Below are positions 1-62,854 of a DNA stretch of 64,000 nt, piece by piece. This stretch comes from Sinohyriopsis cumingii. Lineage: Eukaryota; Mollusca; Bivalvia; Unionida; Unionidae. The notes beneath the pieces are model-generated. The model was not told where the DNA came from. It saw nothing but the letters and a program-made list of their open reading frames with translations, and did no database searches. Position 1 is the first letter of the stretch; each line of letters opens with the position of its first letter. Both the position numbers and the translations under genes were made by a program. Location of the stretch: contig JAPYKE020000263.1 of the NCBI GenBank assembly GCA_028554795.2, positions 620,001 to 684,000 on the forward strand, read 5' to 3'.

Positions 1-2858
1 TTATTTGTTTGTCAGTTTTAAATTTTATTTATTTCTGATTTCATGCGTTTTTAGTGTAAATTTATTCACTTGAAACGATACCTTTTTCAGAAAATATTTT
101 GACCTTGACTTTTTCGTTTTGTAAACACCAGGTGTTGACCTAGATCCTGACTTCGATTCAAAATTATTAGCACCCACGTACATTGGTTTTATTTTTCTTT
201 TAAAATGATTGTTTGTTGTCGAGGTCATGATTGGACTACGTTTTCAAGATGTAAACAATTTCTTAAAATTTTGTTTCTTAGAGTAAAATGATTGGTTTTC
301 GTCAGGACCACACTGCATGTATATGAGCTTTAACAAGTAATTAATTTCCACGATGTTCTGTAACATGATCACGTCATCCCCTTTTTGCATTTTAGAATAC
401 AATATAACCTTTATTTTGGAGAGATATTCTGAGCAGTAGTTGGGCTCTTACACTGGAAATTGTATGTTGTGCTGTGTGGAATAATTTCAAATTACTTGAA
501 ATCAAAAGGATTAATTTCTTTTTCCTGGAAAATACATGTTCTGCATACGAAATTCCTGAGCAAAGCCATCTCTTTGAAAGATTTATTTGGATTTTCAAAA
601 CTAGGAGTGATAATTCTTCTTTCTATTAGGAACTGTAGACTTCAACACTATAGGTAACAGCATATGTCATCTTCCATGATGGATTCTTCTTGGTGACTCA
701 AACTTGAAATCATTACAAAATTTTATTAGTAGAACTACTAACATTTTATTCGTGGATTATTTTTGTATTTGATTCTTAAAACCGTAAATTCATACTTTTT
801 TCTCACTTTTAAAGAATTTTTCTATCAAAAGAAATGATATTTTTCAAAGCTTGTTGTTTTCACTCTTTCTTGTGTTACTGTTTATTCGAGCCTAGACAGG
901 TAACATAAGATGATCAAATCCTACCTTGGATTCTTGTCTTTTTGTACAATACTTCTATGGGAGCCACATCTCTTGAAAGAACCTATTGTGTTTCGAGATG
1001 GAGCACTCTCTCAATACAGCTTTTACCTTGTCTTCAGTTGGTTTTAGTTTTTCCCCAGCAATGTGATATTGGCATTCTTTACTATATTTTGTGTCAGTTT
1101 CTTTTGTATCCATGAAAGTATGATTTAAATCCCCATTAGGCAGTGTAATGCCAATTACCTCCAAAAAGTTTGATTTTCTTTAATCTTTCTTTGAGATTTC
1201 GCTTCCATTTAAATATTAATTTGTTCATGTATGCATCAGAATCTTAGGGTTTTGTGGATATCTGACTATTTGTAAATAATTTGAATTTTTGAAGTTGTTT
1301 CCTAATTCTATTTGAATTCATTCCCAACACTGAATACTGTCCAGAATTGTATGAAAACTTTCTGGAAGATATAGATTCATTTGCAAAATATAACTCATTT
1401 TCCTTTTAAATTCATTGAAATTTTTTTTTAAATGCAGGGGTACATACTTAAATTCATCTCAGCATGGTTGCATGGATGTATGTACATAAACATCCATACA
1501 TCCTTCATAGATACATGTATCAAAGTCTTTCACTGTCCTAGTATATCCTAAGAAGTATGCTGTAAAGTAAGATCTATAACGAAAGAGATTTAGCCATGTA
1601 TAACTTGTTGATTGTTAAGGAGGAAATTGTTTTATTGTGATGGAGGATAACTGTATTCAGCAAATGTTTTATATATTTTTAATTTTATAGCAAATGATAT
1701 TAGTATGTTCCTATTTATGATATTAATCAGTATCATATTATTGAATTCTTGTTATTTTCTTCTTTTTCATGATATCCTTCACAAAACAGGGCGTAAGTAT
1801 TCTATCTTGAACTTTTCTGTTACTTGGTCTAAACAGTAATACATTCATCTGAAAAAGAGAATAAAAAGGCAGAAAAATAACTAATCTTTCTAACAATCTT
1901 AAAAGAGAATGTAGTTTGGCAGGTCAAGTATCTAGAATGATTTGTTGTATAGACTATAAACCAGACTAAAGTACGTGTCACGAACTACCCTTTCAGTGCC
2001 AAAGGCAAGTAGGTATTTGTGTACATAGTTTGTCTTTGGAGTTAAACCATATTAACTTCGGGTGAACGAGTAACCAGCAAGTAATTATTGTTTCCCGGAT
2101 TTGATTGATATTGCTAAATGATTGGGTTGTGTTATCCTCTTTTTCCCCGATGTTAGATAAATCACATCCCACACATCAAGTCATCAGTTAAAGTTGGTGC
2201 AGTCAGTTACATCCTTTCTTTATAGAGTTCATTCCTGTATATTATCTGTAAATTACGCCACTGACTTGAGTCTCTGAGTTAATGATTTTGTTTGTGGATG
2301 TGATAGTTGTCTTTTTATTTCATTCATTTTTATATGTACAGTGTACATTTATATATATTCGAAGTTTCCCCAAAGCCTGATCAAAACCATCATTACAGCT
2401 GTTGTTACTATTGAGCACTAATAATGTTAACACCTAGAACCTTGAAAACAACGGCATAGACTCCCAGTACAAGGAGAGAATTTTAACACTGGAGAAAATC
2501 ATTATGGTAACTGAAAGAAATGAAAAAGAAACTATTTTAAAATAGCAATTTAAATGTGCAGCGAAACAATATTCAGGGTGTTAAAACGGTCAAGGAACAA
2601 ACTAGAAATGAATGTACATGTTAAGTCATTTAAATACGGCTTCAAATGTGAATGTGATTGACATTTAATGTTTGAAGTATCTATCACTTTTTGGCCATAT
2701 AATTTTGTTTTCAAAAGAATGAATACAATATTTTAACAAAAACTATTAATACTGGATCTGATATTTGTATGTAAAGTGATTGTGGTTCTTTCTCCTTCTT
2801 CAAAAGTACTTGTTATATGTATTTAATTCTATCTGATTTCATATATATTTATATCAAT
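1..2858 (+). repeat. Monomer 1 (A-like, GGC triplet)
   Basis: 2858 bp. It carries A-type markers (GACTTTTTCG near the head, short GAACGAGTAACC form at about 2062) but a G-type GGC triplet before the donor. The hydrophobic exon candidate is 1691-1792. The start codon of the longer unspliced frame is changed to CTG at 1651. The gypsy-like fragment is 955-1164 on the minus strand, and the A-type 67-codon minus frame is 25-228. About 1800-2858 shows no gene beyond the AATAAA and the micro-exon-like site. Confidence 0.9.
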
Positions 2859-5692
2859 TTATTTGTTTGTCAGTTTTAAATTTTATTTATTTCTGATTTC
2901 ATGCGTTTTTAGTGTAAATTTATTCACTTGAAACGATACCTTTTCAGAAAATATTTTGTCCTTGACTCTTCGTTTTGTAAACACCAGGTGTTGACCTAGA
3001 TCCTGACTTCGATTCAAAATTAGTAGCAACCACGTAAATTATTTCTATTTTGCTTTTAAAATGATTGCTTGTTGTCGAGGTCATGATGGGACTACGTTTT
3101 TAAGATGTAAACAATTTCTTAAAATTGTATTTCTTAGAGTAAAATGATTAGTTTTCGTCAGGACCACACTGGGTGTACATGAGCTTTAACAAGTAAATAA
3201 TTTCGACGATGTTCTGTAACATGATCACGTCACCCCCTTTTTGCATTTTAGGATACAATATAACCTTTGTTTTGGAGAGATATTCTCAGTAGTAGTTGGG
3301 CTCTTACACTGGAAATTGTATGTTGTGCTGTCTGGAATAATTTCAAATTACTTGAATTCAAAAGGATTAATTCCTTTTTCCAGGAAAATACGTGTTCTGC
3401 ATACGAAATTCCTGAGCAAAGACATCTCTTTGAAAGATTTATTTGGGTTTTCAAAACTAGGAGTGATAATTCTTCTTTCTATAAGGAACTGAAGACTTCA
3501 ACGCTATAGATCACAGCATATGTCATCTTTCGTCATGGATTCTTCGTGGTGACTCAAACTTGAAATCATTGGAAAATTTTCTTATCTGAACTGCTAAAAT
3601 TTTATTCTTGGATTATTTTTGTATTTGATTCTTAAAACCGGAAAAGAAATGATATTTTTCAAAGCTTGTTGTTTTCACTCTTTCTTGTGTTACTGTTTAT
3701 TCGAGCCTATACAAGTAACATAAGATGATCAAATCCTACCTTGGATTCTTGTCTTATTGTACAATACTTCTATGGTAGCCACATCTCTTGAGAGAACCTA
3801 TTGTGTTTCGAGATGGAGCAGTCTCTCAAGACAGCTTTTACCTTGTCTTAAGTTGGTTTTAGTTTTTCCCCAGCAATGTAATATTCGCATCCTTTATTAT
3901 ATTTTGTGTAGTTTCTCTTGTATCCATGAAATTATGATTTAAATTCCAATTGGGCAGTGTAATGCCAACTACCTCCAAAAAGTTTGATTTTCTTTAATCT
4001 TTCTTTGAGATTTCGCTTCCATTTAAATATTCATTTATTCATGTATGTATCAGAATTTTAGGGTTTTGTGGATATCTGACTATTTGTAAATAATTTGAAT
4101 TTTTGAAGTTTTTTCCTAATTCTATTTGAATTCATTCCCAAATCTGAATACTGTCCAGAATTGTATGAAAACTTTATGGAAGATATAGATTCATTTGCAA
4201 AATATAACTCATTTTCCTTTTAAACTCATTGAGAATTTTTTTAAAAATGCAGGGGTACATACTTAAATTCATCTCAACATGGTTGCATGCATATATGTAC
4301 ATAAACATTCATACATCCTTCATAGATACATGTATCAAACTCTTTCATTGTCCTAGTATATGCTAACAAGTTTGCTGTAATGCAAGATATGTAACGAAAG
4401 AGATTTAGCCATGTATAACTTGTTGATTGTTAAGGAGGAAATTGTTTTATTGTGATGGAGGATAAATGTATTTAGTAAATGTTTTATGTATTTTTAATAT
4501 TACAGGAAATGATATTAGTATGTTCCTATTTATGATATTAATCAGTATCATATTATTGAATTCTTGTTATTTTCTTCTTTTTCATCATATCCTTCACAAA
4601 ACAGTGTGTAAGTATTATATCTTGAACTTTTCTGTTACTTGGTCTAAACAGTAATACATTCATCTGAAAAAGAGAATAAAAAGGCAGAAAAATAACTAAT
4701 TTTTCTAACAATCTTGAAAGAGAATGTGGTTTGGCAGGTCAAGTATTTAGTATGATTTGTTGTATAGACTATAAACCAGACTAAAGTACGTGTCACGAAC
4801 TAACCTTTCAGTGCCAAAGGCAAGTAGGCATTTGTGTACATAGTTTGTCTTTGGAGTTAAACCATATTAACTTCGGGTGAAGGAGGTCTTTTTGCCTATT
4901 AAACCAGCAAGTAATTATTGTTTCCCGGATTCGATTGATATTGCTAAATGATTGGGTTGTGTTATCCTTTTTTTTCCGATGCTACATTAATCACATTCCA
5001 CACATCAAGTCATCAGTTAAAGTTGGTGCAGTCGGTTACATCCTTTCTTTATAGAGTTCATCCCTGTATATTATCTGTAAATTACGCCACTGATTTGAGT
5101 CTCTGAGTTAATGATTTTGTTTATGGATGTGATAGTTGTCTTTTTATTTCATTCATTTTTATATGTACAGTGTACATTTATATATATTCGAAGTTTCCCC
5201 AAAGCCTGATCAAAACCATCATTACAGCTGTTGTTACTATTGAGCACTAATAATGTTAACACCTAGAACCTTAGAAACAACGGCATAAACTCCCAGTACA
5301 AGGAGAGAATTTTAACACTGGAGAAAATCATTATGGTAACTGAAAGAAATGAAAAAGAAACTATTTTAAAATAGCAATTTAAATGTGCAGTGAAACAATA
5401 TTCAGGGTGTTAAAACGGTCAAGGAACAAACTAGAAATGAATTTACATGTTAAGTCCTTTAAATACATCTTCAAATATAAATGTGATTGACATTTAATGT
5501 TTGAAGTATCTGTCACTTTTTGGCCTTGTAATTTTGTTTTCTGAAGAATGAATACAATATTTTAACAAAAACTATGAACACTGGATCTGATATTTGTTTG
5601 TAAATCGATTGTTGTTCTTTCTCCTTCTTCAAAAGTACTTGTTATGTGTATTTGATTTAATTCTATCTGATTTCATATATATTTATATCAAT
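2859..5692 (+). repeat. Monomer 2 (V type)
   Basis: 2834 bp. It shows the V-type deletion of about 44 bp after TTAAAACCG (near 3640), the TGT triplet and the long GGAGGTCTTTTTGCC form. The exon candidate is 4506-4607 within a 62-codon frame at 4466-4654. The homologue of the gypsy-like fragment lies at about 3770-3975. The regulatory palindrome is in the TCACGTCA form. Confidence 0.9.
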
Positions 5693-8554
5693 TTTTTTGT
5701 TTGTCAGTTTTAAATTTTATTTATTTCTGAGTTCATGCGTATTTAGTGTAAATTTATTCACTTGAAATGATACCTTTTTCAGAAACTATTTTGACCTTGA
5801 CTGTTCGTTTTGTAAACACCAGGTATTGACCTAGATCCTGACTTCGATTCAAAATTAGTAGCAACCACGTAAATTAGTTTTATTTTTCTTTTAAAATGAT
5901 TGCTTGTTGTCGAGGTCATGATGGGACTACGTTTTTAAGATGTAAACAATTTCTTAAAATTGTATTTCTGAGAGTAAAATGATTGGTTTTCGTCAGGACC
6001 ACACTGCGTGTACATGAGCTTTAACAAGTAAATAATTTCGACGATGTTCTGTAACATGATGACGTCAGCCCCTTTTTGGATTTTAGAATACGATATAACC
6101 TTTGTTTTGGAGAGATATTCTCAGTAGTAGTTGGGCTCTTACACTGGAAATTGTTTGTTGTGCTGTCTGGAATAATTTCAAATTACTTGAATTCAAACGA
6201 ATTAATTCCTTTTTCCTGGAAAATACGTGTTCTGCATGTGAAATTCCTGAGCAAAGACATCTTTTTTAAAGATTTATGTGGATTTTCAAAACTAGGAGTG
6301 ATAATTCTACTTTCTGTAAGGAACTGAAGATTTCAACACTATAGATAACAGCATATGTCATCTTCCATCATGGATTCTTCGTCGGGACTCAAAGTTGAAA
6401 TTATTAGAAAATTTTATTAACAGAACTACTAAAATTTTATTCATGGATCATTTTTGTATTTGATTCTTAAAACCGTAAATTGATACTTTTTTCCTCACTT
6501 TTAAAGATTTGATTTTAGGAAATGAAATGATATTTTTCAAAGCTTGTTCTTTTCACTCTTTCTTGTGTTACTGTTTATTCGAGCCTAAGCAAGTAACATA
6601 AGATGATCAAATCCTACCTTGAATTCTTGTCTTTTTGTACAATACTTCTATGGGAGCCACATCTCTTGAGAGAACCTATTGTGTTTCGAGATGGAGCAGT
6701 CTCTCAAGACAGCTTTTTCCTTGTCTTCAGTTGGTTTTAGTTTTTTCCCAGCATTGTAATATTAGCATCCTTTACTATATTTTGTGTCAGTTTCTCTTGT
6801 ATCAATGAAATTATGATTTAAATTCCAATTGGGCAGTGTAATGCCAACTACCTCCAAAAAGGTTGATTTTCTTTAATCTTTCTTTGAGATTTCGCTTCCA
6901 TTTAAATATTCATTTATTCATGTATGCATCAGAATTTTAGGGTTTTGTGGATATCCATTTGTAAATAATTTTCATTTTTGAAGTTTTTTCCTAATTCTAT
7001 TTGGATTCATTCCCAAAACTGAATACTGTCCAGAATTGTATGATAACTTTATGGAAGATATAGATTCATTTGCAAAATATAACTCATTTTCCTTTTAAAC
7101 TCATTGAGAATTTTTTTAAAAGTGCAGGGGTACATACTTAAATTCATCTCAACATGGTTGCATGCATATATGTACATAAACATCCATACATCCTTCATAG
7201 ATACATGTATCAAAGTCTTTCATTGTTCTAGTATATGCTAACAAGTTTGCTGTAATCCAAGATATGTAACGAAAGAGATTTAGCCATGTATAACTTGTTG
7301 ATTGTTAAGGAGGAAATTGTTTTATTGTGATGGAGTATAAATGTATTCAGTAAATGTTTTATGTATTTCTAATTTTACAGCAAATGATATTAGTATGTTC
7401 CTATTTATGATATTAATCAGTATCATATTATTGAATTCTTGTTTTTTTTTTCTTCTTTTTCATGATATCCTTCACAAAACAGGGCGTAAGTATTATATCT
7501 TGAACTTTTCTGTTACTTGGTCTAAACAGTAATACGAATAAAAAGGCAGAAAAATAACTAATTTTTCTAACAATCTTGAAAGAGAATGTAGTTTGGCAGG
7601 TCAAGTATTTAGTATGATCTGTTGTATAGACTATAAACCAGACTAAAGTACGTGTCACGAACTACCCTTTCAGTGCCAAAGGCAAGCAGGTATTTGTGTA
7701 CATAGTTTGTCTTTGGAGTTAAACCATATTAACTTCGGGTGTAGGAGGTCTTTTTGCCTATTAAACCAGCAAGTAATTATTGTTTCCCGAATTCGATTGA
7801 TATTGCTAAATGATTGGGTTGTGTTATCCTTTTTCTCCCGATGTTAGATTAATCACATCCCACACATCAAGTCATCAGTTAAAGTTGGTGCAGTCGGTTA
7901 CATCCTTTCGTTATAGAGTTCATTCCTGTATATTATCTGTAAATTACGCCACTGACTTGAGTCTCTGAGTGAATGATTTTGTTTGTGGATGTGATAGTTG
8001 TCTTTTTATTTCATTCATTTTTATATGTACAGTGTACATTTATATATATTCGAAGTTTCCCCAAAGCCTGATCAAAACCATCATTACAGCTGTTGTTACT
8101 ATTGGGCACTAATAATGTTAACACCTAGAACCTTAAAAACAACAGCATAAACTCCCAGTACAAGGAGAGAATTTTAACACTGGAGAAAATCATTATGGTA
8201 ACTGAAAGAAATGAAAAAGAAACTATTTTAAAATAGCAATTTAAATGTGCAGTGAAACAATGTTCAGGGTGTTAAAAGGGTCAAGGAACAAACTAGAAAT
8301 GAATTTACATGTTAAGTCCTTTAAATACATCTTCAAATATAAATGTGATTGACATTTAATGTTTGAAGTATCTGTCACTTTTTGGCCTTGTAATTTTGTT
8401 TTCTGAAGAATGAATACAATATTTTAACAAAAACTATGAACACTGGATCTGATATTTGTTTGTAAATCGATTGTTGTTCTTTCTCCTTCTTCAAAAGTAC
8501 TTGTTATGTGTATTTGATTTAATTCTATCTGATTTCATATATATTTATATCAAT
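5693..8554 (+). repeat. Monomer 3 (G type, twin of monomer 4)
   Basis: 2862 bp. The GGC triplet is present and the exon candidate is 7381-7485, three bases longer than usual because of an in-frame T-tract expansion. The unspliced frame is 7341-7532, 63 codons, with TATAAA just before the ATG. A perfect TGACGTCA lies at 6060-6067. The gypsy-like homologue is at about 6650-6860. A 16 bp stretch between the stop codon and AATAAA is missing, as in units 4, 9 and 12. Confidence 0.9.
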
Positions 8555-11231
8555 TTTTTTGTTTGTCAGTTTTAAATTTTATTTATTTCTGAGTTCATGC
8601 GTATTTAGTGTAAATTTATTCACTTGAAATGATACCTTTTTCAGAAACTATTTTGACCTTGACTGTTCGTTTTGTAAACACCAGGTATTGACCTAGATCC
8701 TGACTTCGATTCAAAATTAGTAGCAACCACGTAAATTAGTTTTATTTTTCTTTTAAAATGATTGCTTGTTGTCGAGGTCATGATGGGACTACGTTTTTAA
8801 GATGTAAACAATTTCTTAAAATTGTATTTCTGAGAGTAAAATGATTGGTTTTCGTCAGGACCACACTGCGTGTACATGAGCTTTAACAAGTAAATAATTT
8901 CGACGATGTTCTGTAACATGATGACGTCAGCCCCTTTTTGGATTTTAGAATACGATATAACCTTTGTTTTGGAGAGATATTCTCAGTAGTAGTTGGGCTC
9001 TTACACTGGAAATTGTTTGTTGTGCTGTCTGGAATAATTTCAAATTACTTGAATTCAAACGAATTAATTCCTTTTTCCTGGAAAATACGTGTTCTGCATG
9101 TGAAATTCCTGAGCAAAGACATCTTTTTTAAAGATTTATGTGGATTTTCAAAACTAGGAGTGATAATTCTACTTTCTGTAAGGAACTGAAGATTTCAACA
9201 CTATAGATAACAGCATATGTCATCTTCCATCATGGATTCTTCGTCGGGACTCAAAGTTGAAATTATTAGAAAATTTTATTAACAGAACTACTAAAATTTT
9301 ATTCATGGATCATTTTTGTATTTGATTCTTAAAACCGTAAATTGATACTTTTTTCCTCACTTTTAAAGATTTGATTTTAGGAAATGAAATGATATTTTTC
9401 AAAGCTTGTTCTTTTCACTCTTTCTTGTGTTACTGTTTATTCGAGCCTAAGCAAGTAACATAAGATGATCAAATCCTACCTTGAATTCTTGTCTTTTTGT
9501 ACAATACTTCTATGGGAGCCACATCTCTTGAGAGAACCTATTGTGTTTCGAGATGGAGCAGTCTCTCAAGACAGCTTTTTCCTTGTCTTCAGTTGGTTTT
9601 AGTTTTTTCCCAGCATTGTAATATTAGCATCCTTTACTATATTTTGTGTCAGTTTCTCTTGTATCAATGAAATTATGATTTAAATTCCAATTGGGCAGTG
9701 TAATGCCAACTACCTCCAAAAAGGTTGATTTTCTTTAATCTTTCTTTGAGATTTCGCTTCCATTTAAATATTCATTTATTCATGTATGCATCAGAATTTT
9801 AGGGTTTTGTGGATATCCATTTGTAAATAATTTTCATTTTTGAAGTTTTTTCCTAATTCTATTTGGATTCATTCCCAAAACTGAATACTGTCCAGAATTG
9901 TATGATAACTTTATGGAAGATATAGATTCATTTGCAAAATATAACTCATTTTCCTTTTAAACTCATTGAGAATTTTTTTAAAAGTGCAGGGGTACATACT
10001 TAAATTCATCTCAACATGGTTGCATGCATATATGTACATAAACATCCATACATCCTTCATAGATACATGTATCAAAGTCTTTCATTGTTCTAGTATATGC
10101 TAACAAGTTTGCTGTAATCCAAGATATGTAACGAAAGAGATTTAGCCATGTATAACTTGTTGATTGTTAAGGAGGAAATTGTTTTATTGTGATGGAGTAT
10201 AAATGTATTCAGTAAATGTTTTATGTATTTCTAATTTTACAGCAAATGATATTAGTATGTTCCTATTTATGATATTAATCAGTATCATATTATTGAATTC
10301 TTGTTTTTTTTTTCTTCTTTTTCATGATATCCTTCACAAAACAGGGCGTAAGTATTATATCTTGAACTTTTCTGTTACTTGGTCTAAACAGTAATACGAA
10401 TAAAAAGGCAGAAAAATAACTAATTTTTCTAACAATCTTGAAAGAGAATGTAGTTTGGCAGGTCAAGTATTTAGTATGATCTGTTGTATAGACTATAAAC
10501 CAGACTAAAGTACGTGTCACGAACTACCCTTTCAGTGCCAAAGGCAAGCAGGTATTTGTGTACATAGTTTGTCTTTGGAGTTAAACCATATTAACTTCGG
10601 GTGTAGGAGGTCTTTTTGCCTATTAAACCAGCAAGTAATTATTGTTTCCCGAATTCGATTGATATTGCTAAATGATTGGGTTGTGTTATCCTTTTTCTCC
10701 CGATGTTAGATTAATCACATCCCACACATCAAGTCATCAGTTAAAGTTGGTGCAGTCGGTTACATCCTTTCGTTATAGAGTTCATTCCTGTATATTATCT
10801 GTAAATTACGCCACTGACTTGAGTCTCTGAGTGAATGATTTTGTTTGTGGATGTGATAGTTGTCTTTTTATTTATATTTTTAACTGAAAGAAATGAAAAA
10901 GAAACTATTTTAAAATAGCAATTTAAATGTGCAGTGAAACAATGTTCAGGGTGTTAAAAGGGTCAAGGAACAAACTAGAAATGAATTTACATGTTAAGTC
11001 ATTTAAATACATCTTCAAATATAAATGTGATTGACATTTAATGTTTGAAGTATCTATCACTTTTTGGCCATATAATTTTGTTTTCAAAAGAATGAATACA
11101 ATATTTTAACAAAAACTATTAATACTGGATCTGATATTTGTATGTAAAGTGATTGTGGTTCTTTCTCCTTCTTCAAAAGTACTTGTTATATGTATTTAAT
11201 TCTATCTGATTTCATATATATTTATATCAAT
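8555..11231 (+). repeat. Monomer 4 (G type, ~180 bp tail deletion)
   Basis: 2677 bp. It matches monomer 3 base for base in every line I compared up to about 10873. It then loses about 180 bp that normally hold the TGTACAGTGTACA dyad and the TTCCCCAAAGCC block, and resumes with V-type tail sequence after about 11000. The exon candidate is 10243-10347, the unspliced frame 10203-10394 and TGACGTCA 8922-8929. Confidence 0.92.
10866..10885. other. Deletion junction in monomer 4
   Basis: CTTTTTATTTATATTTTTAA joins sequence that in monomer 3 is separated by about 180 bp. A few bases at the join (TATATTTTT) match neither flank clearly, as in end-joining with filler. The lost segment holds the TGTACAGTGTACA dyad. 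Confidence 0.85.
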
Positions 11232-14065
11232 TTATTTGTTTGTCAGTTTTAAATTTTATTTATTTCTGATTTCATGCCTTTTTAGTGTAAATTTATTCAC
11301 TTGAAACGATACCTTTTCAGAAAATATTTTGACCTTGACTGTTCGTTTTGTAAACACCAGGTGTTGACCTAGATCCTGACTTCGATTCAAAATTAGTAGC
11401 AACCACGTAAATTAGTTCTATTTTGCTCTTAAGATGATTGCTTGTTGTCGAGGTCATGATGGGACTACGTTTTTAAGATGTAAACAATTTCTTAAAATTT
11501 TATTTCTTAGAGTAAAATGATTGGTTTTTGTCAGGACCACACTGCGTGTAGATGAGCTTTAACAAGTAAATAATTTCGACGATGTTCTGTAACATGATCA
11601 CGTCACCCCCATTTTGCATTTTAGGATACAATATAACCTTTGTTTTGGAGAGATATTCTCAGTAGTAGTTGGGCTCTTACACTGGAAATTGTATCTTGTG
11701 CTGTCTGGAATAATTTCAAATTACTTGAATTCAAAAGGATTAATTCCTTTTTCCTGGAAAATACGTGTTCTGCATACGAAATTCTTGAGCAAAGACATCT
11801 CTTTGAAAGATTTATTTGGATTTTCAAAACTCGGAGTGATAATTCTTCTTTCTATAAGGAACTGTATATTTCAAGACTATAGATCACAGCATATGTCATC
11901 TTTCATCATGGATTCTTCGTGGTGACTCAGACTTGAAATCATTAGAAAATTGTATGATTAGAACTACTAAAATTTTATTCATGGATTATTTTTGTATTTG
12001 ATTCTTAAAACCGGAAAAGAAATGATATGTTTCAAAGCTTGTTGTTTTCACTCTTTCTTGTGTTACTGTTTATTCGAGCCTATACAAGTAACATAAGATG
12101 ATCAAATCCTACCTTGGATTCTTGTCTTTTTGTACAATACTTCTATGGGAGCCACATCTCTTGAGAGAACCTATTGTGTTTCGAGATGGAGCAGTCTCTC
12201 AATACAGCTTTTAACTTGTCTTAAGTTGGTTTTAGTTTTTCCCCAGCAATGTAATATTAGCATCCTTTACTATATTTTGTGTAGTTTCTCTTGTATCCAT
12301 GAAATTATGATTTAAATTCCAATTGGGCAGTGTAATGCCAACTACCTCCAAAAAGTCTGATTTTCTTTAATCTTTCTTTGAGATTTCGCTTCCATTTAAA
12401 TATTAATTTATTCATGTATACATCAGAATTTTAGGGTTTTGTGGATATCTAACTGTTTGTAAATAATTTGAATTTTTGAAGTTTTTTCCTAATTCTATTT
12501 GAATTCATTCCCAAAACTGAATACTGTCCAGAATTGTATGAAAACTTTATGGAAGATATAGATTCATTTGCAAAATATAACTCATTTTCCTTTTAAACTC
12601 ATTGAGAATTTTTTTAAAAATGCAGGGGTATATACTTAAATTCATCTCAACATAGTTGCATGCATATATGTACACAAACATCCATACATCCTTCATAGAT
12701 ACATGTATCAAAGTCTTTCATTGTCCTAGCATATGCTAACAAGTTTGCTGTAATGCAAGATATGTAACGAAAGAGATTTAGCCATGTATAACTTGTTGAT
12801 TGTTAAGGAGGAAATTGTTTTATTGTGATGGAGGATAAATGTATTCAGTAAATGTTTTATGTATTTTTAATATTACAGCAAATGATATTAGTATGTTCCT
12901 ATTTATGATATTAATCAGTATCATATTATTGAATTCTTGTTATTTTCTTCTTTTTCATGATATCCTTCACAAAACAGTGTGTAAGTATTATATCTTGAAC
13001 TTTTCTGTTACTTGGTCTAAACAGTAATACATTCATCTGAAAAAGAGAATAAAAAGGCAGAAAAATAACTAATTTTTCTAACAATCTTGAAAGAGAATGT
13101 AGTTTGGCAGGTCAAGTATTTAGTATGATTTGTTGTATAGACTATAAACCAGACTAAAGTACGTGTCACGAACTAACCTTTCAGTGCCAAAGGAAAGTAG
13201 GCATTTGTGTACATAGTTTGTCTTTGGAGTTAAACCATATTAACTTCGGGTGAAGGAGGTCTTTTTGCCTATTAAACCAACAAGTAATTATTGCTTCCCG
13301 GATTCGATTGATATTGCTAAATGATTGGGTTGTGTGATCCTTTTTTTTCCGATGCTACATTAATCACATCCCACACATGAAGTCATCAGTTAAAGTTGGT
13401 GCAGTCGGTTACATCTTTTCTTTATAGAGTTAATTCCTGTATATTATCTGTAAATTACGCCACTGACTTGAGTCTCTGAGTTAACGATTTTGTTTGTGGA
13501 TGTGATAGTTGTCTTTTTATTTCATTCATTTTTATATGTACAGTGTACATTTATGTATATTCGAAGTTTCCCCAAAGCCTGATCAAAACCATCATTACAG
13601 CTGTTGTTACTATTGAGCACTAATAATGTTAGCACCTAGAACCTAAAAAACAACGGCATAAACTCCCAGTACAAGGAGAGAATTTTAACACTGGAGAAAA
13701 TCATCATTGTATCTGAAAGAAATGAAAAAGAAACTATTTTAAAATAGCAATTTAAATGTGCAGTGAAACAATATTCAGGGGTTTAAAAGGGTCAAGGAAC
13801 AAACTAGCAATGAATTTACATGTTAAGTCATTTAAATACGTCTTCAAATGTGAATGTGATTGACATTTAATGTTTGAAGTATCTATCACTTTTTGGCCAT
13901 ATAATTTTGTTTTCAAAATAATGAATACAATATTTTAACAAAAGCTATGAATACTGGATCTGATATTTGTATGTAAAGTGATTGTGGTTCTTTCTCCTTC
14001 TTCAAAAGTACGTGTTATGTGTATTTGATTTAATTCTCTGTTCTTTCAAATATATTTATATCAAT
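11232..14065 (+). repeat. Monomer 5 (V type)
   Basis: 2834 bp. TGT triplet, V-type 44 bp deletion, long GGAGGTC form. The exon candidate is 12879-12980 and the frame 12839-13027. The micro-exon-like site has GGAAAGT in place of GCAAGT. The gypsy-like homologue lies at about 12135-12350. Confidence 0.9.
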
Positions 14066-14089
14066 TTATTTGTTTGTCAGTTTTGAATT

Positions 14090-14293
14090 TTATTTATTTC
14101 TGATTTCATGCGTTTTTAATGTAAATTTATTCACTTGAAACGATACCTTTTTCAGAAAATATTTTGACCTTGACTTTTTCGTTTTGTAAACACCAGGTGT
14201 TGACCTAGATCCTGACTTCGATTCAAAATTAGTAGCACCCACGTAAATTAGTTCTATTTTTCTTTTAAAATGATTGCTTGTTGTCGAGGTCAT
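14090..14293 (-). other. A-type-specific 67-codon minus-strand frame
   Basis: A basic, unrecognised frame (begins MTSTTSNHFKRKIELIYVG, contains TPGVYKTKKSRSKYFLKK) is open from ATG to stop only in A-type or A-like monomers: 25-228, 14090-14293, 28602-28805, 37156-37389 and 48559-48804. In V, D, G and E units a small length difference at the GACTTTTTCG / GACTGTTCG site changes the frame. It has no hydrophobic segment and no known motif that I can name. Its retention in one type may reflect shared ancestry rather than selection. Confidence 0.2.
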
Positions 14294-22955: not shown

Positions 22956-22965
22956 TTTGAAACAA
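22945..22965. other. Deletion junction between monomers 8 and 9
   Basis: GATTTAATTTGAAACAATACC joins a monomer tail to a point about 75-80 bp into the next monomer, removing the TCATATATATTTATATC and GTTTGTCAG landmarks. Short AATT/ATTT homology is present at the join. Confidence 0.85.
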
Positions 22966-51410: not shown

Positions 51411-54271
51411 TTATTTGTTTGTCAGTTTTAAATTTTATTTATTTCTGATTTCATGCCTTTTTAGTGTAAATTTATTCACTTGAAACGATACCTTTTTCAG
51501 AAAATATTTTGACCTTGACTGTTCGTTTTGTAAACACCAGGTGTTGACCTAGATCCTGACTTCGATTCAAAATTAGTAGGAACCACGTAAATTAGTTCTA
51601 TTTCTCTTTTAAAATGATTGCTTGTTGTCGAGGTCATGATGGGACTACGTTTTTAAGATGTAAACAATTTCTTAAAATTTTATTTCTTAGAGTAAAATGA
51701 TTGGTTTTTGACAGGACCACACTACGTGTACATGAGCTTTTACAAGTAAATAATTTCGACGATGTTCTGTAACATGATGACGTCAGCCCCTTTTTGCATT
51801 TCAAAATATGATATAATCTTTGTTTTGGAGAGATATTCTCAGTAGTAGTTGGGCTCTTACAGTGGAAATTGTATGTTGTGCTGTCTGGAATAATTTCAAA
51901 TTACCTGAATTCAAAAGGATTAATTCCTTTTTCCTGGAAAATACGTGTTCTGCATACGAAATTCCTGAGCAAAGACATCTCTTTTAAAGATTTATTTGGA
52001 TTTTCAAAACTAAGAGTGATAATTCATCTTTGTATAAGGAACTGAAGACTTCAACACTATAGATAACAGCATATGTCATCTTCCATCATTTATTCTTCGT
52101 GGGGACTCAAACTTGAAATCATTAGAAAATTGTATTATTAGAACTACTAAAATTTTATTCATGGATTACTTTTGTATTTGATTCTTAAAACCGTAAATTC
52201 ATACTTTTTTCCTCACTTTTAAAGATTTGTTTTTAGGAAAAGAAATGATATTTTTCAAACTTGTTGTTTTCACTATTTCTTGTGTTACTGTTTATTCGAG
52301 CCTAAACAAGTAACATAAGATGATCAAATTCTACCTTGGATTCTTGTCTTTTTGTACAATACTTCGTTGGGAGCCACATCTCTTGAGAGAACCTATTGTG
52401 TTTCGAGATGGAGCAGTCTCTCAAGACAGCTTTTACCTTGTCTTCAGTTGGTTTTAGTTTTTCCCCAGCATTGTAATATTGGCATCCTTTAATATATTTT
52501 GTGTCAGTTTCTCTTGTATCAATGAAATTATGATTTAAATTCCAATTGGGCAGTGTAATGCCAACTACCTCCAAAAAGTTTCATTTTCTTTAATCTTTCT
52601 TTGAGATTTCGCTTCCATTTAAATATTCATTTATTCATCTATGCATCAGAATTTTAGGGTTTTGTGGATATCTATTTGTAAATAATTTGCATTTTTGAAG
52701 TTTGTTCCTAATTCTATTTGAATTCATTCCCAACACTGAATACTGTCCAGAATTGTATGAAAACTTTATGGAAAATATAGATTCATTTGCAAAATATAAC
52801 TCATTTTCCTTTTAAACTCATTGAGAATTTTTTTAAAAATGCAGGGGTACATACTTAAATTCATCTCAACATGGTTGCATGCATATATGTACATAAACAT
52901 CCATACATCCTTCATAGATACATGTATCAGACTCTTTCATTGTCCTAATATACGCTAACAAGTTTGCTGTAATGCAAGATATGTAACGAAAGAGATTTAG
53001 CCATGTATAACTTGTTGATTGTTAAGGAGGAAATTGTTTTATTGTGACGCAGGATAAATGTATTCAGTAAATGTTTTATGTATTTTTAATTTTACAGCAA
53101 ATGATATTAGTATGTTCCTATTTATGATATTAATCAGTATCATATTATTGAATTCTTTTTATTTTCTTCTTTTTCATGATATCCTTCACAAAACAGATGG
53201 TAAGTATTATATCTTGAACTTTTCTGTTACTTGGTCTAAACAGTAATACATTCATCTGAAAAAGAGAATAAAAAGGCAGAAAAATAACTAATTTTTCTAA
53301 CAATCTTGAAAGAGAATGTAGTTTGGCAGGTCACGTATTTAGTATGATTTGTTGTATAGACTATAAACCAGACTAAAGTACGTCTCACGAAGTACCCTTT
53401 CAGTGCCAATGGCAAGCAGGTATTTGTTTACATAGTTTGTCTTTGGAGTTAAACCATATTAACTTCGGGTGAACGAGTAACCAGCAAGTAATTATTGTTT
53501 CCCGGATTCGATTGATATTGCTAAATGATTGGGTGGTGTGATCCATTTTTTTTCCCGATGTTAGATTAATCACATTCCACACATCAAGTCATCAGTTAAA
53601 GTTGGTGCAGTCGGTTACATCCTTTCTTTATAGAGTTCATCCCTGTATATTATCTGTAAATTACGCCACTGACTTGAGTCTCCGAGTTAATGATATTGTT
53701 TGTGGATGTGATAGTTGTCTTTTTATTTCATTCATTTTTATATGTACAGTGTACATTTATATATATTCGAAGTTTCCCTAAAGCCTGATCAAAACCATCA
53801 TTACAGCTGTTGTTACTATTGAGCACTAATAATGTTAACACCTAGAACCTTAGAAACAACGGCATAAACTCCCAGTACAAGGAGAGAATTTCAACACTGG
53901 AGAAAATCATTATGGTAACTGAAAGAAATGGAAAAGAAACTATTTTAAAATAGCAATTTAAATGTGCAGTGAAACAATATTCAGGGTGTTAAAACGGTCA
54001 AGGAACAAACTAGAAATGAATTTACATGTTAAGTCATTTAAATACATCTTTAAATATAAATGTGATTGACATTTAATGTTTGAAGTATCTATCACTTTTT
54101 GGCCATATAATTTTGTTTTCAGAAGAATGAATACAATATTTTAACAAAAGCTGTGAATACTGGATCTGATATTTGTTTGTAAATCGATTGTTGTTCTTTC
54201 TCCTTCTTCAAAAGTACTTGTTTTGTGTATTTGATTTAATTCTATCTGATTTCATATATATTTATATCAAT
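51411..54271 (+). repeat. Monomer 19 (D type, HOR copy 2)
   Basis: 2861 bp. ATG triplet, exon candidate 53098-53199, frame 53058-53246. TGACGTCA is 51778-51785. Unlike its partner unit 15 it keeps the AGAGATATTCTCAGTAG stretch. The gypsy-like fragment is 52302-52574. Confidence 0.9.
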
Positions 54272-57143
54272 TTATTTGTTTGTCAGTTTTAAATTTTATT
54301 TATTTCTTATTTCATGCGTTTTTAGTGTAAATTTATTCATTTGAAACAATACCTTTTTCAGAAACTATTTTAACCTTGACTGTTCGTTTTGTAAACACCA
54401 GGTGTTGACCTAGATCCTGACTTCGATTCAAAATTAGTAGCAACCACGTAAATTAGTTTTATTTTTCTTTCAAAATGATTGCTTATTGTCGAGGTCATGA
54501 TGGGACTACGTTTTTAAGATGTAAACAATTTCTTAAAATTGTATTTCTTAGAGTAAAATGATTGGTTTTCGTCAGGACCACACTACGTGTACATGAGCTT
54601 TAACAAGTAAATAATTTCGACGATGTTCTGTAACATGATGACGTCAGCCCCTTTTTGCATTTTAGAATACGATATAACCTTTGTTTTGGAGAGATATTCT
54701 CAGTAGTAGTTGGGCTCTTACACTGGAAATTGTATGTTGTGCTGTCTGGAATAATTTCAAATTACTTGAATTCAAAAGGATTAATTCCTTTTTCCTGGAA
54801 AATACGTGTTCTGCATACGAAATTCCTGAGCAAAGACATCTCTTTTAAAGATTTATTTGGATTTTCAAAACTAGGAGTGATAATTCATCTTTGTATAAGG
54901 GACTTAAGACTTCAACACTATAGATAACAGCATATGTCATCTTCCATCATGGATTCTTCGTGGGGACTCAAACTTGAAATCATTAGAAAATTGTATTATT
55001 AGAACTACTAAAATTTTATTCATGGATTACTTTTGTATTTGATTCTTAAAACCGTAAGTTCATACATTTTTCCTCACTTTTAAAGATTTTTTTTAGGAAA
55101 AGAAATGATATTTTTCAAAGCTTGTTGTTTTCACTATTTCTTGTGTTACTGTTTATTCGAGCCTAAGCAAGTAACATAAGATGATCAAATCCTACCTTGG
55201 AATCTTGTCTTTTTGTACAATACTTCGTTGGGAGCCACATCTCTTGAGAGAACCTATTGTGATTCGAATAGAGCAGTCTCTCAATACAGCTTTTACCTTG
55301 TCTTCAGTTGGTTTTAGTTTTTCCCCAGCAATGTAATATTGGTATCCTTTAGTATATTTTGTGTCAGTTTCTCTTGTATGCATGAAAGTATGATTTAAAT
55401 CCCAATTGGGCAGTGTAATGCCAACTACCTCCAAAAAGTTTGATTTTCTTTAATCTTTCTTTGAGATTTCGCTTCCATTTAAATATTCATTTTATTCATG
55501 TATGCATCAGAATTTTAGGGTTTTGTGGATATCTAACTATTTGTAAATAATTTGAATTTTTGACGTTTTTTCCTAATTCTATTTGCATTCATTCCCAAAA
55601 CTGAATACTGTCCAGAATTGTATGAAAACTTTATGGAAGATATAGATTCATTTGCAAAATATAACTCATTTTCCTTTTAAACTCATTGAGAATTTTTTTT
55701 TAAAATGCAGGGGTACATACTTAAATTCATCTCAACATGGTTGCATGCATATATGTACATAAACATCCATACATCCTTCATAGATACATGTATGAAAGTC
55801 TTTCATTGTTCTAGTATATGCTGACAAGTTTGCTGTAATGCAAGATATGTAACGAAAGAGATTTAGCCATGTATAACTTGTTGATTGTTAAGGAGGAAAT
55901 TGTTTTATTGTGATGGAGGATAAATGTATTCAGTAAATGTTTTATGTATTTTTAATTTTGCAGCAAATGATATTAGTATGTTCCTATTTATGATATTAAT
56001 CAGTATCATATTATTGAATTTTTGTTATTTTCTTCTTTTTCATGATATCCTTCACAAAACAGCGCGTAAGTATTATATCTTGAACTTTTCTGTTACTTGG
56101 TCTAAACAGTAATACATTCATCTGAAAAAGATAATAAAAAGGCAGAAAAATAACTAATTTTTCTAACAATCTTGAAAGAGAATGTAGTCTGGCAGGTCAA
56201 GTATTCAGTATGATCTGTTGTATAGACTATAAACCAGACTAAAGTACGTCTCACGAACTACCCTTTCAGTGCCAATGGCAAGCAGGTATTTGTGTACATA
56301 GTTTGTCTTTGGAGTTAAACCATATTAACTTCGGGTGTAGGAGGTCTTTTGCCTATTAAACCAGCAAGTAATTATTGTTTCCCGAACTCGATTGATCTTG
56401 CTAAATGATTGGGTTGTGTTATCCTTTTTCTCCCGATGTTAGATTAATCACATCCCAAACATCAAGTCATCAGTTAAAGTTGGTGGAGTCGGTTGCATCC
56501 TTTCTTTATAGAGTTCATTCCTGTATATTATCTGTAAATTACGCCACTGACTTGAGTCTCTGAGTTAATGATTTTGTTTGTGGATGTGATAGTTGTCTTT
56601 TTATTTCATTCATTTTTATATGTACAGTGTACATTTATATATATTCGAAGTTTCCCCAAAGCCTGATCAAAACCATCATTACAGCTGTTGTTACTATTGA
56701 GCACTAATAATGTTAACACCTAGAACCTTAAAAACAACGGCATAGACTCCCAGTACAAGGAGAGAATTTTAACACTGGAGAAAATGATTATGGTAACCGA
56801 AAGAAATGAAAAAGAAACTATTTTAAAATAGCATTTTAAATGTGCAGTGAAACAATATTCAGGGTGTTAAAACGGTCAAGGAACAAACTAGAAATGAATT
56901 TACATGTTAAGTCATTTAAATACATCTTCAAATATAAATGAGATTGACATTTAATGTTTGAAGTATCTATCACTTTTTGGCCATATAATTTTGTTTTCAA
57001 AAGAATGAATACAATATTTTAACAAAAACTATTAATACTGGATCTGATATTTGTATGTAAAGTGATTATGGTTCTTTCTCCTTCTTCAAAAGTACTGTTA
57101 TATGTATTTAATTCGACCTGATTTCATATATATTTATATCAAT
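54272..57143 (+). repeat. Monomer 20 (E type, HOR copy 2)
   Basis: 2872 bp. CGC triplet, unique in the window, against AGT in its partner unit 16. The exon candidate is 55964-56065 and the frame 55924-56112. TGACGTCA is 54639-54646 and the gypsy-like fragment 55192-55434. Confidence 0.9.
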
Positions 57144-59977
57144 TTATTTGTTTGTCAGTTTTAAATTTTATTTATTTCTGATTTCATGCCTTTTTAGTGT
57201 AAATTTATTCACTTGAAACGATACCTTTTTCAGAAAATATTTTGACCTTGTCTGTTCGTTTTGTAAACACCAGGTGTTGACCTAGATCCTGACTTCGATT
57301 CAAAATTAGTAGCAACCACGTAAATTAGTTCTATTTTGCTTTTAAAATGATCGCTTATTGTCGAGGTCATGATGGGACTACGTTTTTAAGATGTAAACAA
57401 TTTCTTAAAATTGTATTTCTCAGAGTAAAATGATTGGTTTTCGTCAGGACCACACTGGGTGTAGATGAGCTTTAACAAGTAAATAATTTCGACGATGTTC
57501 TGTAACATGATGACGTCAGCCCCTTTTTGCATTTTAGAATACAATATAACCTTTGTTTTGGAGAGATATTCTGAGTAGTAGTTGGGCTCTTACACTGGAA
57601 ATTGTATGTTGTGCTGTCTGCAATAATTTCAAATTACTTGAATTCAAAAGGATTAATTCCTTTTTCCTGGAAAATACGTGTTCTGCATACGAAATTCCTG
57701 AGCAAAGACATCTCTTTGAAAGATTTATTTGGATTTTCAAAACTAGGAGTGATGATACTTCTTTCTATAAGGAACTGTATACTTCAACACTATAGATCAC
57801 AGCATATGTCATCTTTCATCATGGATTCTTCGTGGTGACTCAAACTGGAAATCATTAGAAAATTGTATTATTAGAACTACTGAAATTTTATTCATGGGTT
57901 ATTTTTGTATTTGATTCTTAAAACCGGAAAAGAAATGATAGTTTGCAAAGCTTGTTGTTTTCACTCTTTCTTGTGTTACTGTTTATTCGAGCCTATACAA
58001 GTAACATAAGATGATCAAATCCTACCTTGGATTCTTGTCTTTTTGTACAATACTTCGTTGGGAGCCACATCTCTTGAGAGAACCTATTGTGTTTCGAGAT
58101 GGAGCAGTCTCTCAAAACAGCTTTTACCTTGTCTTAAGTTGGTTTTAGTTTTTCCCCAGCAATGTAATATTATGATCCTTTACTATATTTTGTGTAGTTT
58201 CTCTTGTATCCATGAAATTATGATTTAAATCCCAATTGGGCAGTGTAATGCCAACTACCTCCAAAAAGTTTGAATTTCTTTGATCTTTCTTTGAGATTTC
58301 GCTTCCATTTAAATATTCATTTATTCATGTATGCATCATAATTTTAGGGTTTTGTGGATATCTAACTATTTGTAAATAATTTGAATTTTTGACGTTTTTT
58401 CCTAATTCTATTTGCATTCATTCCCAAAACTGAATACTGTCCAGAATTGTATGAAAACTTTGTGGAAGATATAGATTCATTTGCAAAATATAACTCATTT
58501 TCCTTTTAAACTCATTGAGAATTTTTTAAAAAATGCAGGGGTACATACTTAAATTCATCTCAACATGGTTGCATGCATATCTGTACATAAACATCCATAC
58601 ATCCTTCATAGATACATGTATCAAAGTCTTTCATTGTCTTAGTATATGCTAACAAGTTTGCTGTAATGCAAGATATGTAACGAAAGAGATTTAGCCATGT
58701 ATAACTTGTTGATTGTTAAGGAGGAAATTGTTTTATTGTGATGGAGGATAAATGTATTCAGTAAATGTTTTATGTATTTTTAATATTACAGCAAATGATA
58801 TTAGTATGTTCCTATTAATGATATTAATCAGTATCATATTATTGAATTCTTTTTATTTTCTTCTTTTTCATCATATCCTTCACAAAACAGTGTGTAAGTA
58901 TTATATCTTGAACTTTTCTGTTACTTGGTCAAAACAGTAATACATTCATCTGAAAAAGAGAATAAAAAGGCAGAAAAATAACTAATTTTTCTAACAATCA
59001 TGAAAGAGAATGTAGTTTGGCAGGTCAAGTATTTAGTATGATTTGTTGTATAGACTATAAACCAGACTAAAGTACGTGTCACGAACTAACCTTTCAGTGC
59101 CAAAGGTAAGTAGGCATTTGTGTACATAGTTTGTCTTTGGAGTTAAACTATATTAACTTCGGGTGAAGCAGGTATTTTTGCCTATTAAACCAGCAAGTAA
59201 TTATTGTTTCCCGAATTCGATTGATATTGCTAAATGATTGGGTTGTGTGATCCTTTTTTTTTCCGATGCTACATTAATCACATCCCACACATCAAGTCAT
59301 CAGTTAAAGTTGGTGCAGTCGTTTACATCCTTTTTTATAGAGTTCATTCCTGTATATTATCTGTAAATTACGCCACTGACTTGAGTCTCTGAGTTAATGA
59401 TTTTGTTTGTGGATGTGATAGTTGTCTTTTTGTTTCATTCCTTTTTATATGTACACTGTTCATTTATGTATATTCGAAGTTTCCCCAAAGCATGATCAAA
59501 ACCATCATTACAGCTGTTGTTACTATTGAGCACTAATAATGTTAACACCTAGAACCTTAAAAACAACGGCATAAACTCCCAGTACAAGGAGAGAATTTCA
59601 ACACTGGAGAAAATCATTATGGTAACTGAAAGAAATGAAAAAGAAACTATTTTAAAATAGCAATTTAAATGTGCAGTGAAACAATATTCAGGGTGTTAAA
59701 ACGGTCAAGGAACAAACTAGAAATGAATTTACATGTTAAGTCATTTAAATACATCTTCAAATATAAATGTGATTGACATTTAATGTTTGAAGTATCTATC
59801 ACTTTTTGGCCATATAATTTTGTTTTCAAAAGAATGAATACAATATTTTAACATAAACTATGAATACTGATCAGATATTTGTATGTAAAGTGATTGTGGT
59901 TCTTTCTCCTTCTTCAAAAGTACTTGTTATGTGTATTTGATTTAATTCTCTGTTCTTTCAAATATATTTATATCAAT
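57144..59977 (+). repeat. Monomer 21 (V type, HOR copy 3)
   Basis: 2834 bp. TGT triplet, exon candidate 58792-58893, frame 58752-58940. It shows mosaic features: TGACGTCA (57511-57518) where other V units have TCACGTCA, and the E-type TTGACG/TTTGCATTC markers near 58390-58420. These suggest conversion from an E unit. A perfect GTAAGT follows the micro-exon-like site at 59098-59105. Confidence 0.9.
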
Positions 59978-62854
59978 TTATTTGTTTGTCAGTTTTAAAT
60001 TTTATTTATTTCTGATTTCATGCCTTTTTAGTGTAAATTTATTCACTTGAAACGATACCTTTTTCAGAAAATATTTTGACCTTGACTGTTCGTTTTGTAA
60101 ACACCAGGTGTTGACCTAGATCCTGACTTCGATTCAAAATTAGTAGCAACCACGTAAATTAGTTCTATTTCTCTTTTAAAATGATTGCTTGTTGTCGAGG
60201 TCATGATGGGACTACGTTTTTAAGATGTAAACAATTTCTTAAAATTTTATTTCTTAGAGTAAAATGATTGGTTTTTGACAGGACCACACTACGTGTACAT
60301 GAGCTTTTACAAGTAAATAATTTCGACGATGTTCTTTAACATGATGACGTCAGCCCCTTTTTGCATTTCAAAATATGATATAATCTTTGTTTTGGAGAGA
60401 TATTCTCAGTAGTAGTTGGGCTCTTACACTGGAAATTGTATGTTGTGCTGTCTGGAATAATTTCAAATTACTTGAATTCAAAAGGATTAATTCCTTTTTC
60501 CTGGAAAATACGTGTTCTGCATACGAAATTCCTGAGCAAAGACATCTCTTTTAAAGATTTATTTGGATTTTCAAAACTAGGAGTGATAATTCATCTTTGT
60601 ATAAGGAACTGAAGACTTCAACACTATAGATAACAGCATATGTCATCTTCCATCATTTATTCTTCGTGGGGACTCAGACTTGAAATCATTAGAAAATTGT
60701 ATTATTAGAACTACTAAAATTTTATTCATGGATTACTTTTGTATTTGATTCTTTAAAACCGTAAATTCATACTTTTTTCCTCACTTTTAAAGATTTGTTT
60801 TTAGGAAAAGAAATGATATTTTTCAAACTTGTTGTTTTCACTATTTCTTGTGTTACTGTTTATTCGAGCCTAAACAAGTAACATAAGATGATCAAATTCT
60901 ACCTTGGATTCTTGTCTTTTTGTACAATACTTCTTTGGGAGCCACATCTCTTGAGAGAACCTATTGTGTTTCGAGATGGAGCAGTCTCTCAAGACAGCTT
61001 TTACCTTGTCTTCAGTTGGTTTTAGTTTTTCCCCAGCATTGTAATATTGGCATCCTTTAATATATTTTGTGTCAGTTTCTCTTGTATCAATGAAATTATG
61101 ATTTAAATTCCAATTGGGCAGTGTAATGCCAACTACCTCCAAAAAGTTTGATTTTCTTTAATCTTTCTTTGAGATTTCGCTTCCATTTAAATATTCATTT
61201 ATTCATGTATGCATCAGAATTTTAGGGTTTTGTGGATATCTATTTGTAAATAATTTGCATTTTTGAAGTTTGTTCCTAATTCTATTTGAATTCATTCCCA
61301 ACACTGAATACTGTCCAGAATTGTATGAAAACTTTATGGAAGATATAGATTCATTTGCAAAATATAACTCATTTTCCTTTTAAACTCATTGAGAATTTTT
61401 TTTAAAAATGCAGGGGTACATACTTAAATTCATCTCAACATGGTTGCATGCATATATATACATAAACATCCATACATCCTTCATAGATACATGTATCAGA
61501 GTCTTTCATTGTCCTAGTATATGCTAACAAGTTTGCTGTAATGCAAGATATATAACGAGAGAGATTTAGCCATGTATAACTTGTTGATTGTTAAGGAGGA
61601 AATTGTTTTATTATGATAGAGGATAAATGTATAGAGTAAATGTTTTATGTATTTTTAATATTAAAGCAAATGATATTAGTATGTTCCTATTTATGATATT
61701 AATCAGTATCATATTATTGAATTCTTGTTATTTTCTTCTTTTTCATGATATCCTTCACAAAACAGATGGTAAGTAATATATCTTGAACTTTTCTGTTACT
61801 TGGTCTAAACAGTAATACATTCATCTGAAAAAGAGAATAAAAAGGCAGAAAAATAACTAATTTTTCTAACAATCTTGAAAGAGAATGTAGTTTGGCAGGT
61901 CAAGTATTTAGTATGATTTGTTGTATAGACTATGAACCAGACTAAAGTACGTGTCACGTACTACCCTTTCAGTGCCAAAGGCAAGCAGGTATTTGTGTAC
62001 ATAGTTTGTCTTTGGAGTTAAACCATATTAACTTCGAGTGAAGGAGGTCTTTTTGCCTATTAAACCAGCAAGTAATTATTGTTTCCCGAATTCGATTGAT
62101 ATTGCTAAATGATTGGGTTGTGTTATCCTTTTTTTTCCCGATGTTAGATAAATCACATCCCACACATCAAGTCATCAGTTAAAGTTGGTGCAGTCGGTTA
62201 CATCCTTTCTTTATAGAGTTCATTCCTGTATCTTATATGTAAATTACGCCACTGACTTGAGTCTCCGAGTTAATGATATTGTTTGTGGATGATATAGTTG
62301 TCTTTTTATTTCATTCATTTTTATATGTACAGTGTATATTTATATATATTCGAAGTTTCCCTAAAGCCTGATCAAAACCATCATTACAGCTGTTGTTACT
62401 ATTGAGCACTAATAATGTTAACACCTAGAACCTTAGAAACAACGGCATAAATTCCCAGTACAAAGAGAGCATTTCAACACTGGAGAAAATCATTATGGTA
62501 ACTGAAAGAAATGAAAAAGAAACTATTTTAAAATAGATATTTAAATGTGCAGTGAAACAATATTCAGGGTGTTAAAACGGTCAAGGAACAAACTAGAAAT
62601 GAATTTACATGTTAAGTCATTTAAATACATCTTCAAATATAAATGTGATTGACATTTAATGTTTGAAGCATCTATCACTTTTTGGCCATATAATTTTGTT
62701 TTCAGAAGAATGAATACAATATTTTAACAAAAGCTGTGAATACTGGATCTGATATTTGTTTGTAAATCGATTGTTGTTCTTTCTCCTTCTTCAAAAGTAC
62801 TTATTTTGTGTATTTTTTTTAATTCTATCTGATTTCATATATATTTATATCAAT
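59978..62854 (+). repeat. Monomer 22 (D type, mosaic)
   Basis: 2877 bp. ATG triplet, exon candidate 61667-61768. The left part and the far right part follow units 15/19. About 61550-62240 follows unit 7 instead (acceptor TTAAAG, GTAAGTAATAT, CACGTACTACC, long GGAGGTC form, TTAGATAAATCACATC). TGACGTCA is 60345-60352 and the gypsy-like fragment 60870-61142. Confidence 0.88.

Follow-up and report, generated by a model that had tools for sequence, protein, structure and literature searches.

A hypervariable triplet between invariant splice-like signals in a tandem array of Sinohyriopsis cumingii, and its possible reading as an array of single-codon micro-exons

Background

Why should the most variable three bases of a tandemly repeated monomer lie exactly between two splice-like signals that are the same in every copy? 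The question is raised by a stretch of 64,000 nucleotides from the bivalve Sinohyriopsis cumingii (GenBank assembly GCA_028554795.2, contig JAPYKE020000263.1, positions 620,001 to 684,000 of the forward strand), here called the window, which is filled by a head-to-tail array of monomers of about 2.86 kb. Each of the 22 copies of the splice-like site carries a triplet, in one of six states, between an AG and the motif GTAAGT. A first-pass annotation had placed this triplet at the end of a 102-nt candidate exon and had offered three explanations: diversifying selection on a small secreted peptide, a targeted mutation process, or monomer typing by chance. Here we present an analysis in which the triplet itself is read, tentatively, as the exon: each unit would provide a 3-nt micro-exon, AG-NNN-GTAAGT, that holds one codon under diversifying selection. 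From the sequence we give this reading a probability of about 0.38; that the triplet is spliced, translated and selected is what we infer from its position and its diversity.

Results

The triplet and its borders

All 22 triplets were re-read and were identical to those listed in the first-pass annotation, with GGC in five units, TGT in six, CAC in four, ATG in five, and AGT and CGC in one each. On the + strand the exact pattern AAACAG-NNN-GTAAGT occurs 21 times, with 0.02 occurrences expected. The 22nd copy, that of unit 9, has AAATAG in place of AAACAG and carries one inserted nucleotide a few bases farther upstream, so that the earlier description of near-constant flanks holds in 22 of 22 units for GTAAGT and in 21 of 22 for AAACAG. 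The AG before the triplet and the GTAAGT after it, which would be the borders of a micro-exon, are invariant in all 22 units. Unit 9, which is broken in the peptide model, thus retains AG-GGC-GTAAGT and is counted for the micro-exon.

Diversity of the triplet within the monomer

Nowhere in the monomer is diversity higher than at the triplet. In an alignment of the 22 units, built from monomers of the window and scored at the 2811 columns that held 18 or more letters, the triplet columns hold ranks 1, 2 and 7 in pairwise diversity. Their summed diversity is 2.05, as against 1.29 for the next non-overlapping 3-base window, and 0 of 20,000 column permutations reached this value (largest, 1.97). 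The triplet therefore exceeds the maximum expected over the monomer, which was the check set at first pass, and these ranks and permutations make typing of monomers by chance unlikely as the sole cause. When extra states are counted, a measure that ignores the copy number of the monomer types, the triplet has 7 and the next non-overlapping window 5, with 35 of 20,000 permutations reaching 7.

The triplet state tracks monomer type: four types can be distinguished by it, A (GGC, AGT or CGC), B (TGT), C (CAC) and D (ATG), which follow one another in a higher-order repeat. Pairwise identity among the 22 units is 94-99%, and 93-95% for the cut monomer at the window start; units 12/16/20, 13/17, 14/18 and 15/19, spaced four units apart, are about 99% identical, which indicates a four-unit higher-order repeat with recombinant units included. 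With its state tied in this way to the monomer type, the triplet offers about six states rather than 22 independent draws. On a tree of the local flanks, from which the triplet was excluded, the triplet changes 13 times, and the other local columns change 0.31 times each on average; on the whole-monomer tree it requires 20 steps as against 11 for the next non-overlapping window. Such counts are inflated by recombination, and the floor over all trees is 7 changes.

Splice-like signals beside the triplet

Splice sites were scored with simple matrices written from general knowledge. The GTAAGT beside the triplet has an intronic score of 8.7, the highest among the + strand donors of the consensus monomer, in which this motif occurs once on the + strand and not at all on the - strand. 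Diversity alone, scored without regard to splicing, points to the position immediately next to the + strand donor of top intronic score. On the acceptor side, the consensus monomer contains 138 AGs in 2879 bases (about 5%), and in every one of the 22 units no other AG lies within the 57-60 nt before the AG that borders the triplet; an upstream AG-free zone of at least 57 nt is found for 7 of the 138 consensus AGs, that of the triplet included. This zone contains a T-rich tract, and the changes within it include TCT, TGT and TAT to TTT, as well as a TTT insertion. By our estimate, a triplet placed at random would adjoin the best donor with a chance of one in some hundreds to one in a few thousand, depending on the number of donors regarded as acceptable, and would be preceded by AG with a chance of about 1/20. 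It is because chance adjacency to both the donor and the AG is improbable that we tentatively place the triplet in an exon and prefer an exon that begins at the adjacent AG. Coordinates of the triplets and of the signals in unit 12 are given in Table 1.

Table 1. Features of the array, in window coordinates
Feature	Positions	Strand	Remark
Head-to-tail array, ~2.86 kb monomers	1..64000	+	22 splice-like sites; monomers truncated at both window ends
Candidate 3' splice site, unit 12: T-rich tract and AAAACAG directly before triplet	33191..33230	+	putative function; equivalents in all units
Candidate donor GTAAGT, unit 12	33234..33239	+	putative function; best consensus + strand donor by intronic bases
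102-nt candidate exon, unit 12	33132..33233	+	rival model; coding constraint not found
Phase-compatible VDLDPDFDSKLVATT-stop stretch, unit 12	34428..34477	+	would join the 102-nt exon; coding constraint not found
Unit 1 triplet GGC	1790..1792	+	
Unit 2 triplet TGT	4605..4607	+	
Unit 3 triplet GGC	7483..7485	+	
Unit 4 triplet GGC	10345..10347	+	
Unit 5 triplet TGT	12978..12980	+	
Unit 6 triplet CAC	15858..15860	+	
Unit 7 triplet ATG	18726..18728	+	
Unit 8 triplet ATG	21913..21915	+	
Unit 9 triplet GGC	24678..24680	+	upstream AAATAG, +1 nt
Unit 10 triplet TGT	27491..27493	+	
Unit 11 triplet CAC	30370..30372	+	
Unit 12 triplet GGC	33231..33233	+	
Unit 13 triplet TGT	36045..36047	+	
Unit 14 triplet CAC	38924..38926	+	
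Unit 15 triplet ATG	41763..41765	+	
Unit 16 triplet AGT	44628..44630	+	
Unit 17 triplet TGT	47460..47462	+	
Unit 18 triplet CAC	50336..50338	+	
Unit 19 triplet ATG	53197..53199	+	
Unit 20 triplet CGC	56063..56065	+	
Unit 21 triplet TGT	58891..58893	+	
Unit 22 triplet ATG	61766..61768	+	

Several observations weigh against a micro-exon at this place. With the exon bases included, the score of the donor falls to 4.9 and is exceeded at four of the 12 listed + strand sites (highest, 7.5); the exon bases in this score are the variable triplet itself. One donor on the - strand has a higher intronic score, 9.0. The acceptor AG at the triplet scores 2.9, as against 6.2 for the acceptor of the 102-nt exon, 99 nt upstream. 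Variation in the flanks of the triplet is only slightly below that of the remaining monomer (15 of 103 columns versus 22.8%, p=0.026, for a stretch picked post hoc). Also, 3-nt exons are rare.

Among the candidates tried and rejected were the invariant runs of 25-28 bases, which were dropped as conserved blocks since, when variable columns were counted in windows of 30, 45 or 60, no window proved significantly conserved, and a 12-nt AG..GT pair at consensus 49-60, considered as a further micro-exon, whose GT is lost in unit 7. Six more GTAAGT motifs were observed on the + strand at other positions of some units (36260, 47675, 59106, 43619, 55054 and 63637), and none on the - strand of the window.

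The triplet as the end of a longer exon

The triplet could instead close a longer exon at its 3' end, be it the 102-nt stretch or another, in which case the unit would be a small gene or exon with diversified residues at its junction. The 102-nt stretch has the better acceptor of the two, its length is a multiple of 3, and its phase suits the VDLDPDFDSKLVATT-stop stretch downstream; with a following exon that starts with GT, the residue pairs proposed at first pass (GR, VC, AR, DG, EC and AR) were obtained as stated. Its frame is open in 21 of 22 units, and the only indel besides the frameshift of unit 9 is a gain of 3 nt, in frame, in units 3 and 4, a regularity that has to be put down to chance if the exon is the triplet alone. 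Windows of 99 nt that are open in at least 21 units number 84 of 2780, the 102-nt stretch and its neighbours among them.

The substitution pattern argues the other way. Within the 102-nt stretch (32 codons) there are 13 nonsynonymous and 4 synonymous changes where 17.4 and 4.3 are expected, and within the VDLDPDFDSKLVATT-stop stretch 5 and 1 where 8.5 and 3.1 are expected; on these small counts, neither stretch shows the synonymous excess of purifying selection. No monomer frame showed coding constraint: among the 798 open windows of 30 codons that hold 6 or more changes, the best p was 0.011, which is unremarkable for so many windows that overlap. Changes of this neutral-like kind, together with the frameshift in unit 9, speak against the small secreted peptide proposed at first pass, and T-rich DNA tends to yield translations that resemble signal peptides in any case. 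Furthermore, in a longer exon the triplet would begin mid-codon, and diversification would have to spare the first base of that codon and the GT that follows, a constancy on both sides that the peptide model leaves unexplained; an AG precisely at the triplet border would be a coincidence. Taking both sides together, we regard a longer exon as somewhat unlikely.

No exon: CpG decay and multi-base mutation

The array has the hallmarks of a macrosatellite with a higher-order repeat, namely kilobase monomers head to tail, multi-unit periodicity and recombinant units, and no gene was recognised anywhere in the window. A further alternative, which we judge somewhat unlikely, is that there is no exon, and that the triplet is the extreme of multi-base mutation, of CpG decay from a CGCGTAAGT ancestor and of fixation by type in the four-unit repeat. 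In such an ancestor, C>T changes would turn CGCG into TGTG, and G>A changes would turn it into CACG. The composition of the window suits this: CpG observed/expected is 0.51, with TpG (1.20) and CpA (1.26) raised, as in methylated DNA, and the 63 CpG columns of the consensus carry 0.349 extra states per column as against 0.244 at the 2776 columns outside the triplet. If CpG transitions cost nothing, the most generous tree needs just four further changes. Some of the changes could come from the decay of an ancestral CGCG, which is a point against the micro-exon reading. Ten non-CpG changes are nevertheless still required on both the local-flank and the whole-monomer trees.

Other places in the monomer come near the triplet, and these too weigh on the side of mutation. 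Four extra states are found in 13 of 2777 3-base windows and five in two, some of which overlap the triplet. When the local tree is applied over the whole monomer, the triplet is not first: column 1878, outside the flanks, has 14 changes, and column 2522 has 13, as many as the triplet. Adjacent double changes occur elsewhere; the trio 12/16/20 (pairwise differences of 30, 41 and 35) shows three changes at the triplet, but also three at columns 3000-3001, so that the trio alone proves nothing. The earlier claim that the sister units 16 and 20 differ exactly at the triplet holds within the 102-nt stretch and fails for the whole monomer, where 33 of their 35 aligned differences lie elsewhere. The lack of coding constraint fits the no-exon alternative, and it fits the micro-exon as well. 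Against it stand the excess of the triplet on the whole-monomer tree and its adjacency to a perfect GTAAGT and to an AG with a rare AG-free zone, which would be left to chance. CpG decay with multi-base mutation is thus a live rival for the amount of the variation, and not for its place.

A targeted mutation process

The remaining alternative is a process that mutates these three bases specifically, such as a nuclease cut with repair, mutagenesis of the retroelement type, or a deaminase. It would suit an excess limited to three adjacent bases; it would, however, have to hit exactly three bases without indels, as the alignment has no gap at the triplet, and types B, C and D each keep their own state throughout. 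No machinery or structure of the kind was seen: searches returned no RNA family at gathering score and no tRNA, the fold of one unit 12 stretch is not unusual (z -1.29, with 13 of 100 shuffles folding as well), and Pfam searches with six translations gave two matches, both under the curated cut-offs. Such a process, the second of the explanations offered at first pass, is in our judgement highly improbable.

Discussion

A possible array of intron-exon modules

If the triplet alone is the exon, the 2.86 kb unit would be an intron-exon module, with the T-rich tract and AAAACAG as 3' splice site and GTAAGT as 5' splice site. Unequal crossing over would copy this module head to tail within a gene transcribed from the + strand, and each unit would offer one codon, for Gly, Cys, His, Met, Ser or Arg if the phase is 0. 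The introns would drift while selection diversifies the codon slot, and the codons would be either strung together or picked singly. In its fuller form, the proposal is of a eukaryotic gene with an expandable array, in which each module of about 2.86 kb adds a single-codon micro-exon, and crossing over and selection compose or choose a peptide residue by residue; we consider this unlikely as a whole.

G+C is about 30% over the window, and on the + strand T consistently outnumbers A. Among six tests for strand asymmetry of changes, two reached nominal significance, for A>G over T>C and for G>T over C>A (p=0.008 each), in a direction known from the sense strands of transcribed DNA. The asymmetry and the T-over-A skew would fit a transcribed + strand; the support that the asymmetry lends is weak, because polarity was taken from the consensus.

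If the micro-exon reading holds, tandem amplification would act on single codons as its unit, and a gene would vary single residues by copying exon-intron modules, with the drift of introns and the change of codons cleanly separated. Very small exons are easily overlooked in annotation, and such loci may then be classed as satellites. Were the reading false, the locus would show the extent to which chance, CpG decay and higher-order repeats can mimic selection.

Comparison with known systems

Macrosatellites consist of kilobase units arranged head to tail and subject to unequal crossing over. The present array is like them in these respects and in that coding constraint was not detected, but we know of no macrosatellite with a hypervariable slot exactly between splice-like signals. 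Mutually exclusive exon arrays of the Dscam type have tandem alternative exons within one gene; these are of ordinary length, in contrast to the one codon considered here.

Very short exons, mostly in multiples of three and separated by introns of 0.1-5 kb, are described for the schistosome micro-exon genes (MEGs), along with 10-20 exons per gene of 6-81 bp (3-81 in an abstract), secreted products and fast evolution, with dN/dS exceeding 1 for the mature portion in three of these genes (PMC10526429, PMC4015677, PMC4350168). The likeness to MEGs, including MEG-4/10.3 with its tandemly repeated exons, would lie in very short exons and long introns. The difference is that one 3-nt exon candidate is found per 2.86 kb unit, 22 times in the window; where MEGs have many short symmetric exons and a signal-peptide exon, each unit here has one candidate short exon, with no coding constraint elsewhere in the monomer. 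The polymorphic mucins SmPoMuc of S. mansoni carry 0-20 tandem copies of a 27-bp exon (PMC4015677). The present array would be alike in that a tandem exon array gives variation, and unlike in exon length, 27 bp versus 3 nt.

Exons of codon size or smaller are spliced in other systems: examples are 3-nt micro-exons in mouse Ncam and Drosophila troponin T, and 1-nt exons in plant APC11 and VPS55, the donors of the VPS55 1-nt exon being GTRAGT (PMC8042270, PMC8831610). They are described as single exons of their genes, unlike a hypervariable tandem array. Among the matches listed from the open-access literature, no title or opening of an abstract reported 3-nt exons arrayed in tandem. Exact-pattern scans of viral contigs and prokaryote genomes gave 0 matches, as expected of a eukaryote. 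We do not assign the array to the MEG, SmPoMuc or single-gene micro-exon families, and liken it to them by sequence features.

Other observations on the array

Recombinant monomers were observed at window positions 7336-12830 and 58744-61618. Unit 3 equals unit 4 in all 200-column windows scored as far as column 1000 (columns 600-800 being unscored), and is without difference from unit 2 from column 1400 onward. Unit 21 starts as type B and is of type C later, and the C unit is absent between units 20 and 22. Unit 7 (window 18579-21765) has an extra segment of 321 bp, which by eye repeats monomer sequence from about 300 bp upstream. Finally, variable sites cluster at 1825-1884 of the consensus monomer, where 33 of 60 columns are variable and the 95% limit from permutation is 26.

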